Positions 8,785-33,308 are shown, numbered from the stretch's first letter. The stretch is 42,219 nt of DNA from Candidatus Bathyarchaeota archaeon B26-2 (GCA_001593935.1 LUCE01000012.1:1-42219), one strand, 5' to 3'. Made by a program: numbers and translations. Notes: generated by a model not told the origin, from the letters alone.

Positions 8785-10824
8785 ATGCTGATCCGAGAGA
8801 TAATTCTGGAGAGCTTCATGAGCTACGATTACGCTAGGATACCACTCAAGCCAGGTGTTAACATCGTCTGTGGGCCGAACGGCTCTGGTAAGTCATCGAT
8901 ACTCCTCGGCATCTCCGTCGCTCTGGGCCAGTCCTATACCGAACGTTCGAAGAGGCTGAGCGACCTCATCCGTTGGGGCAGGGACATGGGCAGAGTCACC
9001 CTCGTTCTAGACAACTCAAGGAGGAGAGGTCGCCGTCCGGTTCCGAAGATCAAAAAAGACGAGATACTGCTCACTAGAGTTCTGAAGAGGGACGGCCGAT
9101 ACTGGTTCGAGCTGGACAATAGGCCCGTCAACAGGAGCGACGTTGTGAGACTGCTCTCCCGCTTCGGAGTCGACCCAGACAACATGCTCATAATCATGCA
9201 CCAGAACATGGCCGAGCAGTTCGTGATTCTTCCACCCCAAGAGAAACTAAAGATGGTCGAGGCGGCCGTCGGCCTAGAACCATACAGGAGACACGTCTTA
9301 GAAGCCAGGAGAAAACTGAGCAGAATCATGAGCCAAGAAGAGTCCATAAATAAACTTTTAGAGTCTGCCGAGCAGACTCTCAACTACTGGCGTGAACAGT
9401 ACGACCGTTACCAACAGAAGAAGCAGCTCCAGATGAAGAGGAGGTTTCTAGAACGTGAGCTCGCTTGGGCCAAGGTCTCGAGGAAGGAGGAGGCAACCAA
9501 CGAACTCGACGCCAAGATTCGAAGAGTAAAGTATAGCATCGGAGAGATAGAGAAGAGGATAACTTCATCGGAAGACCGGGTGAAGAGCCTCCAGGAGACT
9601 CTTAAATCCAGAAAGGCAGCCCTACGTGAGATGCTTGAGGAGAGGCTGAGGCTTGAAGGCGAGAAGGCTCGCCAAGAGGCCACAGCCTCGCTGGCCAAGA
9701 GGATACTCAACGACCTAGAAGAGTTGATAGCTAAACAACAAGAGGAGATCAAGGCTTTCGTAAGCGAGTTCGGTTTGTCAGCCGTTCAGGCGGGCGGAAA
9801 CCCCGGGTTAAGAGAGCACGGTTTTGGGAGATCTGGAGAGGCTGCGAGGCGCCTCCATGAACGTATAACCCGGCTTCTCACCCCCAGAATCGAGGGCCTC
9901 AAGACTTCTATAGGCCTCTCAACTTCGAGGGCTGCGGAGATCACATCCCATATCGAGGGCCTCCGGGATAAGGTGGAGAGCCTAAACCTCGAGATGGACA
10001 GCCTCCTCGAGGAGGTACTCGACGAGAGGGTCAACCTAGCTCTGCTCCGTTACCAGAAGGAGAACATGACGAAGACTCTGAACGAGCTGGAAGGAGACCT
10101 CAAGAGGGCGCTTAGAGAGTTAGAGTCTGAGGTGTTAAGAGCCGAAGAGATCGGTCCGAGAATAGCGGCGGTAAGGAGCGTAGAAGAGATACTTGACGAG
10201 ATGAGGGTAACCGACGGCAGGATCGCCGCGTTAGCAGACGTCTCCGAGGATATCGAACGCATGTACGAGTCTTATTCTAGGCTTTACCTAGAACTCAAAG
10301 AAAAGAGTAGAAGGGTCGCGGAGAACCGCGAGAAAGCCCTAAACGAGGTTCAAGCCCGCATGGACGCTTGGAGAACCGTTATAAGGAGGCTTATAGAGCG
10401 GGTGGACGCCGAGTACAGAAGGATAATCTCTTACGCAAACGCCGTTGGCTCCGTTCGCTTCCTGAACGAACATGACATAGAGGCTGCTGGGATCGAGATA
10501 CTCGTCGGCTTTAAGGGCGCAAACCCCGTTCCTCTGAACGTTTACACGCAGAGCGGAGGAGAAAGGAGCACAGCAACAATGGCGTTCTTACTCGCCCTAC
10601 AACAGCACGTCAAGTCGCCGTTCAGAGCCGTCGACGAGTACGACATACATATGGACCCGCGGAACAGAGAGGTGATGGCAAATCTTCTGATCTCCTCACT
10701 TGAAGGGGAGAACGTCCAGTACCTCGCCATAACGCCGAACCAAATCTATTTTGAAGGGCGGAACGTCCACATAATCACGGTTCAGAACATTGGAGGATCA
10801 TCCATAATAAAGGAGTCTCTCTGA
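8785..10824 (+). CDS. Short SMC5/6-like (coalescin/ASRP-type) chromosome-organising ATPase
   Basis: A 679-residue ABC-type ATPase of the SMC superfamily. Walker A is GPNGSGKSS (30-38). The ABC signature is SGGERS (590-595). Walker B with the catalytic Glu is FRAVDEYD (613-620), followed by MDPRNRE, which resembles Smc5/Smc6 heads more than Smc1-4 or Rad50. NMLIIMHQNMAEQFVILPPQEK near 155-176 matches the Smc5/6 region just before the coiled coil. Two coiled-coil arms (about 190-330 and 355-540) are joined only by a Gly-rich loop (about 330-355), so neither a normal SMC hinge nor a Rad50 CxxC zinc hook is visible. The length is far below the usual 1,100-1,200. The stop overlaps the next start (TGATG). 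It probably acts on DNA with the kleisin and KITE proteins encoded immediately downstream. Relation to Sulfolobus coalescin is inferred. Confidence 0.85.
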   Translation: MLIREIILESFMSYDYARIPLKPGVNIVCGPNGSGKSSILLGISVALGQSYTERSKRLSDLIRWGRDMGRVTLVLDNSRRRGRRPVPKIKKDEILLTRVLKRDGRYWFELDNRPVNRSDVVRLLSRFGVDPDNMLIIMHQNMAEQFVILPPQEKLKMVEAAVGLEPYRRHVLEARRKLSRIMSQEESINKLLESAEQTLNYWREQYDRYQQKKQLQMKRRFLERELAWAKVSRKEEATNELDAKIRRVKYSIGEIEKRITSSEDRVKSLQETLKSRKAALREMLEERLRLEGEKARQEATASLAKRILNDLEELIAKQQEEIKAFVSEFGLSAVQAGGNPGLREHGFGRSGEAARRLHERITRLLTPRIEGLKTSIGLSTSRAAEITSHIEGLRDKVESLNLEMDSLLEEVLDERVNLALLRYQKENMTKTLNELEGDLKRALRELESEVLRAEEIGPRIAAVRSVEEILDEMRVTDGRIAALADVSEDIERMYESYSRLYLELKEKSRRVAENREKALNEVQARMDAWRTVIRRLIERVDAEYRRIISYANAVGSVRFLNEHDIEAAGIEILVGFKGANPVPLNVYTQSGGERSTATMAFLLALQQHVKSPFRAVDEYDIHMDPRNREVMANLLISSLEGENVQYLAITPNQIYFEGRNVHIITVQNIGGSSIIKESL

Positions 10825-11663
10825 TGCCGAGCGAGGGGAAGAAGAGGAACATAGGCAGAGAAGACATCCGGGGGATCATAGAGCTCTGCAGGTCGGTCCA
10901 GAGTAGAGGTTTAAACCCCTTCTTGGTCGATGTAGACGACCTAGTTGCGATACTGAGAAAATATTTCTCTGAATGGAAGGACTCCGAAGACCTCTGCCTA
11001 GACGCAGAGGCTCTAAATGAGATAGCCTCCGTCATAAAGTTACAGAGCGAATGGGTTAAGCGTAGGTCCACTTCACTCTATACGGACCCCTTCCTCTTAG
11101 AGGAGAAGGTTCGCATCTTAAGTAAAGAGAAGATTGCGGAGGTCTTCCTCCAAGCTTGGCACCCAATCGCGGAGCTGGAGCAGATCTCAATCCGAAGTCT
11201 AGAGGACGCACTCAGATACTGGGAAAACTTGCTCCCTCTGGATGAGAGGCTGCTGAGTGAGGGTTCCCTCCGGGTGGAGCCCGGGACTATAACGCGTGAG
11301 GAGCTGGTCAAGATAGGCATCCTCGCCGAGGAGGCCTTCCTAGAAGAGATGAGGTCCCTCTGGAACGAGCTGAAAGAGAAGGCCGGTGAGGAAGGGAGAA
11401 TACGGTACTGGGACTTTATAGGCTCGAACACTTACCAGGAGACCGTTAGGAGGGCCTACCTAACGAGTTTCCTCGTCACGTATGGATATGCAACTATGGA
11501 GATATACCCGTTAGAGGAGGAGATGTTCCTGAAACCCTTGAAGGAGCCTCCTCTCGGAGCCGAACGAAAGACTCGAGGACGGAAGGAGAGGAGAGAACGG
11601 CTCTTCTCTATACCTATACCGATAAGCTATGAGGAGTGGATGGAGTGGAGAAGGAGACAGTGA
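10824..11663 (+). CDS. ScpA-type kleisin subunit of an SMC complex
   Basis: A 279-residue protein. Residues 29-85 (LNPFLVDVDDLVAILRKYF..., then LCLDAEALNEIASVIKLQSEWV) match the pattern of the ScpA N-terminal domain, where a short acidic helix is followed by the helix ending in K-S that binds the SMC neck. Residues 158-238 (GRIRYWDFIGS..., TVRRAYLTSFLVTYG, then MEIYPLEEEMFLKP) match the ScpA C-terminal winged helix that binds the SMC cap. The linker between is charged. Kleisins bridge the two ATPase heads. The ATG overlaps the stop of the SMC gene by one base, so the two are translationally coupled. The assignment is by pattern recognition; sequence identity is low. A basic tail (RKTRGRKERRERL) could contact DNA. 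Confidence 0.75.
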   Translation: MPSEGKKRNIGREDIRGIIELCRSVQSRGLNPFLVDVDDLVAILRKYFSEWKDSEDLCLDAEALNEIASVIKLQSEWVKRRSTSLYTDPFLLEEKVRILSKEKIAEVFLQAWHPIAELEQISIRSLEDALRYWENLLPLDERLLSEGSLRVEPGTITREELVKIGILAEEAFLEEMRSLWNELKEKAGEEGRIRYWDFIGSNTYQETVRRAYLTSFLVTYGYATMEIYPLEEEMFLKPLKEPPLGAERKTRGRKERRERLFSIPIPISYEEWMEWRRRQ

Positions 11664-12313
11664 GGAGGCCGAGGGGGAGGAGAAAGGCCTACTACACCAT
11701 GAAGATGAGAAGGGCGATCCACCTCCTCCTCTTCAAGCGCCATTCGAAGCCCGGAGCCAAAGGCTGGGAGCTGAGGCGGAGCTTAGGCCCAGACTACATG
11801 AAGGTCATAAGGGTCCTCGACGACTACTTGGAGAATCTCGACCTGAAGGTTAACATGGTCTTCGAGGAGGGAGTGGACAAGGAGAACCTCGAGAACCCCA
11901 CTCCGGAACAGCTCAATAAAGCCCGCTTCTACATAACGCTGAGGGGGACGCTGACGCCTAGGGAGACCAAACTCTTGGGGTGGAGAATCGATGACATAGC
12001 GGCGCTCGCCATAACGATCTCCCACATAATCTCGAAGGACGGTAAAGCCCCTCGCAAAGAGGTTGAAGATCTACTGAGAACTAAGCTCCCCAGCTGGAGA
12101 ACCGAGATGAACCTCAACCGGTTCATCCGCTACGGTTACATAGGTGAAGACGAGAACGGCCAACTATACCTCGACTGGAGGACCCGAGTCGAGGTCGATT
12201 CTAGAAAACTCATCGACCTCCTCCTAAGGACCGAAGTGGAAGAGACGGCGGGACTGTACAACCAGTCCACAAGCCTCAGCATGGAAACGGAGGATCAGGA
12301 AGGGGAGAACTGA
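11660..12313 (+). CDS. Tandem winged-helix (KITE, Nse1/Nse3/ScpB-like) SMC partner
   Basis: About 217 residues from a GTG at 11660 that overlaps the kleisin stop (GTGA). An in-frame GTG at 11636 and an ATG at 11699 are alternatives. Two winged-helix units are visible. The first spans about 14-96 and ends in the strand ARFYITLRG. The second spans about 102-178, with IAALAITISHIISKDGKAPRKEVEDLL, FIRYGYIGEDENGQLYL and WRTRVEVD. This order, an N-terminal WH with a terminal strand followed by a WH ending in a long wing and an R-x-x-x-E/V strand, resembles Nse1/Nse3 and ScpB (kleisin-interacting tandem winged-helix elements). An acidic C-tail follows. Position directly after the kleisin strongly supports a KITE role. 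The specific resemblance to Nse1 is tentative. Confidence 0.65.
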   Translation: MRRPRGRRKAYYTMKMRRAIHLLLFKRHSKPGAKGWELRRSLGPDYMKVIRVLDDYLENLDLKVNMVFEEGVDKENLENPTPEQLNKARFYITLRGTLTPRETKLLGWRIDDIAALAITISHIISKDGKAPRKEVEDLLRTKLPSWRTEMNLNRFIRYGYIGEDENGQLYLDWRTRVEVDSRKLIDLLLRTEVEETAGLYNQSTSLSMETEDQEGEN

Positions 12314-12781
12314 ATGAACCCATCGGACCTAGAAGGCTACCTCAAGAAGAATCGGGTCTGGTACAGGTTCATCTACAAATCTGAGACTGTTCACACTGCC
12401 GACGCGGCGAAGGCCGCCGGCGTAGAGATAGGGAGGTTAACCAAGAACCTCGTCTCCGAGACAGACGAGGGCGAATATGTTCTCCTAATCGTGCCCGGAA
12501 ACCGCAGAGTTAACCTCAAGGCGGCGGCCAAAGCCTTAGGTGTTCGAAGGGTTAAGCTCGTCTCCTTCGAGAGAGCTGAGGAGATAAGCGGCTACCCTCC
12601 GGGTGGGACACCGTCCGTCGGACATAAGGTATTTATGAGGACGGTTATCGATAGGTCTCTCCTAGACTACGAGACCGTCTATTGTGGAGGAGGAAGCAGG
12701 GATAGGCTCCTCGAATTGAGGACCAGAGATGTTTTAAGGCTGAGCAAAGCCGTAATCGCCGACATCTCTAAGATTATGTAG
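12314..12781 (+). CDS. YbaK/ProX-type aminoacyl-tRNA deacylase
   Basis: A 155-residue protein with YbaK-fold motifs: VHTADAAKAAGVEIGRLTKNLV near the N-terminus, YVLLIVPGNRRVNLKAAAKAL with the conserved KxA helix, and GYPPGGTPSVGH near residues 93-104 in place of the typical G-G-x-x-P-x-G loop. The family hydrolyses mischarged aminoacyl-tRNAs in trans. The ATG follows the stop of the KITE gene with no gap, so it is probably co-transcribed with the SMC operon, although no functional tie is obvious. Substrate specificity (Cys-, Ala- or other tRNA) cannot be read. Confidence 0.85.
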   Translation: MNPSDLEGYLKKNRVWYRFIYKSETVHTADAAKAAGVEIGRLTKNLVSETDEGEYVLLIVPGNRRVNLKAAAKALGVRRVKLVSFERAEEISGYPPGGTPSVGHKVFMRTVIDRSLLDYETVYCGGGSRDRLLELRTRDVLRLSKAVIADISKIM

Positions 12782-31895: not shown

Positions 31896-33308
31896 ATGGT
31901 CCGGATGAGCTTCCTGGCTTGTATCGATTGCGGTAGCGCGGTTGAGCCTTACCCGCCCAAATATAAGTGTCCCGTCTGCGGCGGCCTGCTTGAGTATCGA
32001 GTCGAGCCTGAGAGGTTGAGGACCGCTGAGTTCAGTGGCCCCCTCACCTTCTGGAGGTACCGCAGCCTCCTCCCTGAGGTTAAGAACCTTGTTACGATGA
32101 ATGAGGGTGGAACTCCTCTCCATGTCGCAAGCCGCCTAGCTGACCGGATGGACGTGAAGAGTCTCCGCCTCAAGGACGAGACCCGGAACCCAACGAACTC
32201 CTTCAGGGATAGAAGTGCAGCCCTCCTCCTCTCCAACGCCATAGACATGGGCTACAAAGCTTTGATCTGCGCCACCAACGGGAATATGGGAGCTTCCTTA
32301 GCTGCCTACTGCGCCAAGTACGGGCTCATCTGCCACGTTCTAATCCCTAAAGTCATGGATATGGGTAAGCTCGCCCAGATGCTCATATACGACGCCATCA
32401 TCGAGGAGCACGGCGAGACCGTGGACAAGCCTATAGAGAAGGCTGAGAGGCTGGCGTCCGAGACTGGATGGTATCAAGCAACACCTGAACTTAACCCCCT
32501 CGCGGTTGAGGCCCAGAAGACTATCTCATACGAGGTCTCGGAGCAGATGGGGGTTCCGGACTGGTTCATAGTCTCGATGGGAAGCGGGGGAACCATCTAC
32601 TCGATCTGGAAGGGTTTCATGGACCTCCAAGAGATGGGTAAGACAGACTCTGTGCCGAGGATGGTCGGCGTTCAAGCGGAGGGCTGCTCACCCATAGTAG
32701 ACTCCTACCTAAAGATCGGGGAAGAAAAGAGGAGGAGAGCCAAGCCTCTAACCCACGCCGTAGGCATACTCGTCAAGAAGCCTTTACAGAGGGAGATGGC
32801 TATCAGAGCCATAAAGGAGTCGAACGGAATCGCCCTATCGGTCTCGGATCAAGAGATATTCCAAGCTGAACAGGCCATAGCTAGACTGGAGGGTATGTTC
32901 GCTGAGCCTGCGAGCTCGGCGACGATAGCCGCCCTGAAGAGGATGAGGGACGGCGGGGTGCTGGACCCCCACGACAGGGTGGTCTGCCTGATAACTGGCA
33001 GCGGGTTGAAGGCCACGGATGTTCTCCAAGCCTTAGCTAAGAGGAGGAAGACCGTCATACTCGGCGCCGAGTTCAGCACGAAGGAGAGGATCCTCCGAAT
33101 TCTGAGCCAGAGAGATGCTTACGGATACGAGATATGGAAGGCTTTAGGGAGGATGATGACGAGGGTCGCGGTCTACCAGCATCTAAACGACCTCGAGAAG
33201 AAAGGGCTTACGACGACGTACAGCAGAGAGAAGAGAAAGTACTTCCGGATAACGGAGCGGGGGAGGCGGATTCTCCAAATGATCGATGAGCTGAAGATTC
33301 TACTTTGA
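31896..33308 (+). CDS. Threonine-synthase-like protein fused to a winged helix, PLP lysine replaced
   Basis: A 470-residue protein. An N-terminal zinc ribbon (CIDCGSAVEPYPPKYKCPVCGG, residues 9-30) and a fold-type II PLP domain (about 45-380) match threonine synthase. Kept features are the S/T-x-GN-like loop CATNGNMGAS (125-134) and the phosphate loop SMGSGGT (227-233). The Schiff-base lysine motif, normally P-T-G-S-F-K-D-R, here reads NPTNSFRDR, so Arg104 replaces Lys. Residues 394-466 form a PadR-like winged helix (STKERILRILSQRDAYGYEI..., TRVAVYQHLNDLEKKGL). Without the lysine, normal PLP catalysis is unlikely. A ligand-sensing transcription regulator derived from threonine synthase is my inference. 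A sequence error (AAG to AGG) or an unusual chemistry are alternatives. Confidence 0.8.
   Translation: MVRMSFLACIDCGSAVEPYPPKYKCPVCGGLLEYRVEPERLRTAEFSGPLTFWRYRSLLPEVKNLVTMNEGGTPLHVASRLADRMDVKSLRLKDETRNPTNSFRDRSAALLLSNAIDMGYKALICATNGNMGASLAAYCAKYGLICHVLIPKVMDMGKLAQMLIYDAIIEEHGETVDKPIEKAERLASETGWYQATPELNPLAVEAQKTISYEVSEQMGVPDWFIVSMGSGGTIYSIWKGFMDLQEMGKTDSVPRMVGVQAEGCSPIVDSYLKIGEEKRRRAKPLTHAVGILVKKPLQREMAIRAIKESNGIALSVSDQEIFQAEQAIARLEGMFAEPASSATIAALKRMRDGGVLDPHDRVVCLITGSGLKATDVLQALAKRRKTVILGAEFSTKERILRILSQRDAYGYEIWKALGRMMTRVAVYQHLNDLEKKGLTTTYSREKRKYFRITERGRRILQMIDELKILL

Follow-up and report, generated by a model that had tools for sequence, protein, structure and literature searches.

A three-gene SMC operon in a bathyarchaeal genome

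The window analyzed here is a stretch of 42,219 nucleotides from Candidatus Bathyarchaeota archaeon B26-2 (GCA_001593935.1 LUCE01000012.1:1-42219). Three overlapping open reading frames at positions 8785 to 12313, translated from the window, code for an ATPase of the SMC class together with a kleisin and a KITE protein; the three are referred to below as the triplet. The genes and the features of their products are as follows.

8785..10824, plus strand: open reading frame of the hinge-less, Smc5/6-like SMC ATPase, 679 aa (profile against the PDB, Pfam)
8872..8898, plus strand: Walker A motif GPNGSGKSS (translation; nearly invariant in 32 homologs)
9685..9939, plus strand: arm tip, at the hinge position of other SMCs, residues ~301 to 385; unconserved, variable in length, no CxxC
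10552..10569, plus strand: ABC signature motif SGGERS (translation and homologs)
10621..10644, plus strand: Walker B motif FRAVDEYD (translation; surrounding context Smc6/Smc5-like)
10824..11663, plus strand: open reading frame of the Nse4-like kleisin, 279 aa (profile against the PDB, Pfam, Foldseek)
10833..11078, plus strand: kleisin N-terminal helical domain, aa 4 to 85 (AlphaFold2, pLDDT mostly about 96 to 98)
11328..11537, plus strand: kleisin C-terminal winged helix, aa 169 to 238 (AlphaFold2, Foldseek)
11660..12313, plus strand: open reading frame of the KITE protein, GTG start, 217 aa (Foldseek, Pfam)
11672..11941, plus strand: KITE first winged helix, aa 5 to 94 (AlphaFold2)
11957..12172, plus strand: KITE second winged helix, aa 100 to 171 (AlphaFold2)

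The SMC and kleisin genes overlap through TGATG at 10822 to 10826, in which one base is common to the stop and start codons, and the kleisin and KITE genes overlap through GTGA at 11660 to 11663; the gene coordinates and both overlaps given by the first-pass annotation of this DNA were confirmed. The longest version of the KITE reading frame would begin at 11636, and homologs favor the GTG near 11660. A gene for a YbaK-like aminoacyl-tRNA deacylase (window positions 12314 to 12781) begins right behind the KITE stop codon and is possibly cotranscribed with the triplet. Elsewhere in the window, a single open reading frame at 31896 to 33308 encodes a pyridoxal-phosphate enzyme (PALP) fused to a C-terminal PadR-like regulator domain.

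Conservation and coinheritance of the triplet

The triplet is a conserved three-gene operon in many archaea of the phylum Thermoproteota. It was found with the same order and strand in all 32 loci of the order, in 53 of 60 loci across the phylum using the kleisin as bait, and in 74 of 80 loci using the SMC as bait, an order kept beyond chance. Loci without the full triplet were contig ends or belonged to lineages with a relocated SMC. At two loci (L126 and L127), two genes lie between those for the kleisin and KITE, and the SMC gene is several kilobases further away on the opposite strand. At another (L029; G032:C1:444000-450000), the kleisin and KITE are intact, but no more of the SMC was found than its C-terminal 136 aa; the genome carries two triplet loci in all.

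The three genes are also inherited together. The kleisin was found in 203 of 257 genomes of the class and in 158 of 398 genomes of the phylum, and KITE was found in 157 of the 398; both were present in 155 of the 160 genomes having either, with 3 and 2 genomes, respectively, carrying only one, and neither was present in 238. Within the order, 14 of 15 genomes negative for the kleisin also lacked the triplet SMC. The gene-neighborhood survey that the first-pass annotation had put forward as a check thus found a coinherited set of genes that is not private to this genome. Named carriers of the triplet SMC include Bathyarchaeota, Hecatellales, Caldarchaeum, Calditenuaceae, Terraquivivens, Culexmicrobium, and Methanomethylicota; the scan of named genomes for Smc5-like loci used one peptide pattern, and its best 80 loci were all from TACK-type archaea. 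Mean-field DCA on 140 paired triplets (Neff of ~96) gave inter-protein scores indistinguishable from intra-protein noise and no contact signal.

The ATPase has Smc5/6-type heads

Pfam assigns the ATPase of the window to SMC_N (4e-34). The best PDB matches of a profile of the triplet SMC were human Smc6 (3.7e-53), yeast Smc5 (~1e-48), and yeast Smc6 (3e-47), with prokaryotic Smc (2e-36) and Rad50 (only ~1e-7) lower down. The Walker B context of the triplet SMC, SPFR..DE.D..MD..N, agrees with that of Smc6/Smc5 and not with the FY.(F)DE(V)DAHLD of canonical SMCs: the triplet context SPFRAVDEYDIHMDPRNRE resembles SPFRCLDEFDVYMDMVNRR in Smc6 and PFRVVDEINQGMD in Smc5, and in canonical SMCs of the phylum the equivalent position instead has a sequence such as FYIFDEVDAHLD. 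With profiles of equal size, the canonical one built from the same phylum, three eukaryotic Smc5/6 heads scored 88 to 118 bits against triplet-family profiles and 58 to 83 bits against the canonical-SMC profile, a gain of ~27 to 53 bits. In a tree of SMC heads (189 columns, Rad50-like outgroup), the triplet family grouped with Smc5/6 at weak support (84/65), with neither of two alternative topologies rejected (p-AU of 0.34 and 0.45). The signature motif, the Walker B context, and the closest solved structures are all of the Smc5/6 type; the first-pass annotation had called the ATPase SMC5/6-like. This affinity fits the grouping of archaeal "SMC5/6-related" SMCs with SMC5 and SMC6 stated in PMC9389158.

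The kleisin and KITE proteins resemble Nse4 and Nse1/Nse3

A broad profile of the kleisin matched yeast Nse4 (1.6e-5) and human EID3/NSE4B (8.6e-5) in the PDB, followed by ScpA (0.05), and 53 of 81 kleisin homologs matched the Pfam family Nse4_C (best, 5.6e-9); the Pfam match of the kleisin in the window itself was under the curated cutoff. The AlphaFold2 model (mean pLDDT of 83.8) begins with helices at the N terminus, continues through a helical middle region, and ends in a C-terminal winged helix. Nse4 was on top in a Foldseek search with this model (7tve_G, 5e-5; 7qcd_F, 3e-4), followed by C-terminal domains of ScpA and Scc1, on whose C-WHDs the C-terminal winged helix superimposed with an rmsd of 2.4 to 2.8 A. 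Global TM-scores of these matches were low because the domain positions are undefined (pTM of 0.45). The kleisin thus has the N-terminal helices, linker, C-terminal winged helix, and Nse4_C similarity of an Nse4 protein and is specifically Nse4-like by sequence profile, Pfam, and fold alike. Its description in the first-pass annotation as a kleisin of ScpA pattern stands as to the kleisin and not as to the pattern. By analogy, the N-terminal helical domain is expected to bind the SMC neck, and the C-terminal winged helix is expected to bind the SMC head.

The AlphaFold2 model of the third protein (mean pLDDT of 76.6) is a tandem winged helix with the KITE fold. Its top Foldseek matches were MAGE-G1/NSE1 (5hvq, 1e-4) and the Nse1-Nse3-Nse4 complex (7dg2, 2e-4), and further matches included JetABC (8dk1, 4e-4), ScpB (2z99, 2e-3), and MukE. 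Member-by-member scans of the KITE homologs gave weak Pfam matches to MAGE (Nse3) in 19 of 75 and to Nse1 in 11 of 75. A KITE profile had no relevant match among PDB sequences, and the identity signal comes from the fold search and these Pfam scans. The tandem winged-helix KITE proposed from the window is borne out by these results, and the profile and structure searches suggested at that stage for the second and third proteins returned kleisin and KITE matches.

The ATPase lacks a hinge domain

No hinge between long coiled-coil arms is present in the triplet SMC, a point overlooked by the first-pass annotation. The protein measures 554 to 686 aa across 84 homologs, and its two halves align to the halves of Smc6 that flank the Smc6 hinge region. 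Among the 84 homologs, conservation per column was 0.12 to 0.21 at the arm tip compared to 0.5 to 0.8 in the heads, residues ~301 to 385 were gaps in about 30 to 70% of sequences, and a CxxC zinc hook at the tip was found in none. The SMC_hinge Pfam model did not match the ATPase of the window. In 40 of 41 genomes of the order, it matched exactly one gene, a canonical-type SMC, and in none of the 41 did it match the triplet SMC; the hinge-positive open reading frames of the order were nearly all about 1130 to 1230 aa, with a few shorter ones as in broken or incomplete genes. A conclusion from negative hinge searches that other classes have no canonical SMC was dropped, as the model misses canonical-length SMCs of 1169 and 1174 aa in genomes G330 and G421.

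To our knowledge, every characterized SMC-kleisin complex (Smc-ScpAB, MukBEF, Wadjet, cohesin, condensin, and Smc5/6) has a hinge, and we know of no SMC-kleisin-KITE complex without one; the missing hinge is therefore the most unusual feature of the triplet. A tip-to-tip dimerizing contact between the hinge-less arms is possible. One Bathyarchaeota genome encodes a long relative of the triplet SMC (L206:1630-4857, ~1066 aa) that has the same heads and ~330 extra tip residues, mostly coiled coil, with a zinc-hook-like RCDKCG motif; it has no adjoining kleisin or KITE gene, and a normal triplet is found elsewhere in the same genome (L294).

Relationship to known SMC systems

The triplet shares with the eukaryotic Smc5/6 core the head motifs SGGERS and SPFR..DE.D..MD..N, an Nse4-like kleisin, and a tandem winged-helix KITE protein. 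Eukaryotic Smc5/6 has two SMC genes and two KITE genes, whereas the triplet has one of each and a short-armed SMC, and no Nse2, Nse5, or Nse6 was noticed beside it. The earlier description of the operon as a complete Smc5/6-style complex was thus too strong for a set with a single SMC gene, a single KITE gene, and an ATPase lacking the hinge.

An ordinary condensin (Smc-ScpA-ScpB) that has diverged while still folding the chromosome would have the same three-part logic of SMC, kleisin, and KITE, and the C-terminal winged helix of the kleisin is also ScpA-like. This reading is nevertheless improbable and is largely refuted by the canonical hinged SMC of ~1180 aa (L253) in the same genome, together with ScpA and ScpB (L254; Pfam, 2.3e-6 and 1.4e-35) on a contig other than that of the canonical SMC. 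These separate loci, on contigs other than that of the triplet, make the triplet a second, additional SMC system. The triplet is not a hinged SMC of ~1200 aa with ScpA and ScpB, and its kleisin and KITE are closer to Nse4 and Nse1/3 than to those subfamilies. A mobile antiplasmid or antivirus defense of the Wadjet (JetABCD) kind, slightly less probable still, would also combine SMC, kleisin, and KITE; the KITE protein matches the JetABC KITE fold, and the SMC hits several of the ATPases in PADLOC, mad3 being the best at 4e-30, which is expected of any SMC-like ATPase. The kleisin and KITE, however, had no PADLOC match, and the triplet has no hinge. No nuclease subunit was detected: the gene after KITE in the window encodes the YbaK-like deacylase and not a JetD nuclease, and most loci have no recurring same-strand fourth gene directly after the triplet. 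The triplet was present in 100 of 120 good genomes of the class, a distribution that suits a housekeeping role better than patchy defense.

It is very unlikely that the SMC is a break-repair ATPase like Rad50 or coalescin, with two small unrelated genes beside it. As an archaeal SMC-superfamily ATPase, it has a length similar to those of Rad50 and coalescin, and matches to Rad50 and ASRP profiles exist but are far under the cutoffs (for the ASRP family profile, 77.5 bits against a cutoff of 300 bits). Rad50 is matched at an E value of ~1e-7 compared to 1e-53 for Smc6, the tip carries no zinc hook, and the two small genes, with their kleisin and KITE matches, are coinherited with the SMC. Coalescin, which the first-pass annotation had listed as an SMC5/6 relative, belongs to the ASRP family, most members of which have a zinc hook (PMC9389158), so that this attribution does not hold.

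In the same archaea, canonical Smc, ScpA, and ScpB genes adjoin one another at L256:778-5589 and L257:793-5626, in contrast to the literature, in which archaeal Smc-ScpA is generally held to do without ScpB. Archaeal SMC complexes have been described as mostly lacking KITE subunits (PMC7055376).

The class of archaeal "SMC5/6-related" ATPases is already published (Yoshinaga and Inagaki 2021, as reported in PMC9389158), and the triplet SMC is probably of the same lineage; PMC9389158 makes no mention of a kleisin. A literature search found no paper naming an archaeal Nse4, an archaeal Smc5, or kleisin/KITE partners; two key works, the 2021 paper and a 2024 preprint, lay outside that search, so priority for the partners is uncertain.

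A proposed DNA clamp and its role

We consider it likely that the three genes specify a minimal relative of eukaryotic Smc5/6 that is homodimeric and uses ATP to act as a clamp or short-step translocase. We infer its stoichiometry, subunit contacts, clamp mechanism, and role as follows. Since there is a single SMC gene, the SMC would form a homodimer of two hinge-less copies whose heads engage each other on ATP. One SMC neck, contacted by the N-terminal helices of the Nse4-like kleisin, would thereby be linked to the head of the other SMC, contacted by the C-terminal winged helix of the kleisin. KITE, probably a homodimer, would sit on the middle of the kleisin and push DNA against the heads in their engaged state. 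This kleisin-plus-KITE architecture suggests that, as in Smc5/6, the bridge is asymmetric and DNA is clamped close to the heads. In canonical rings a hinge joins the arm tips and so closes off a large SMC lumen; closure of this kind would be unavailable here, and the ring would be open on the arm side unless the tips touch; activity is therefore most likely that of a clamp or short-step translocase at the heads and kleisin-KITE.

The complex probably serves DNA repair, replication, or chromosome maintenance. Among 161 loci with sequence past KITE, 51, from many families, had an Lhr-type DEXH helicase gene (PRK13767) convergent with KITE, for example:

L151:4692-7001, Lhr-type helicase, convergent with KITE
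L153:1-1854, Lhr-type helicase, convergent with KITE
L166:4005-6500, Lhr-type helicase, convergent with KITE
L173:2307-5327, Lhr-type helicase, convergent with KITE

This neighbor hints at a role in DNA repair or recombination. The link is indirect, since the helicase gene is absent beside the triplet of the window and in its closest families.

More tentatively, the triplet may represent a class of working hinge-less SMC-kleisin-KITE complexes whose sister lineage gave rise to eukaryotic Smc5/6. In that case, a hinge-closed ring would be dispensable for SMC-kleisin-KITE machines of this kind, and the kleisin and KITE of Smc5/6 would have been inherited from archaea rather than gained in eukaryotes. 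As far as the Thermoproteota are concerned, the triplet qualifies the published generalization (PMC7055376) that KITE subunits are mostly missing from the SMC complexes of archaea. It bears both on the origin of Smc5/6 and on which parts SMC machines need: small homodimeric archaeal systems make testable the origin of Smc5/6 with its Nse4/Nse1/Nse3 partners, as well as the need for a hinge and a closed ring in the capture and movement of DNA.
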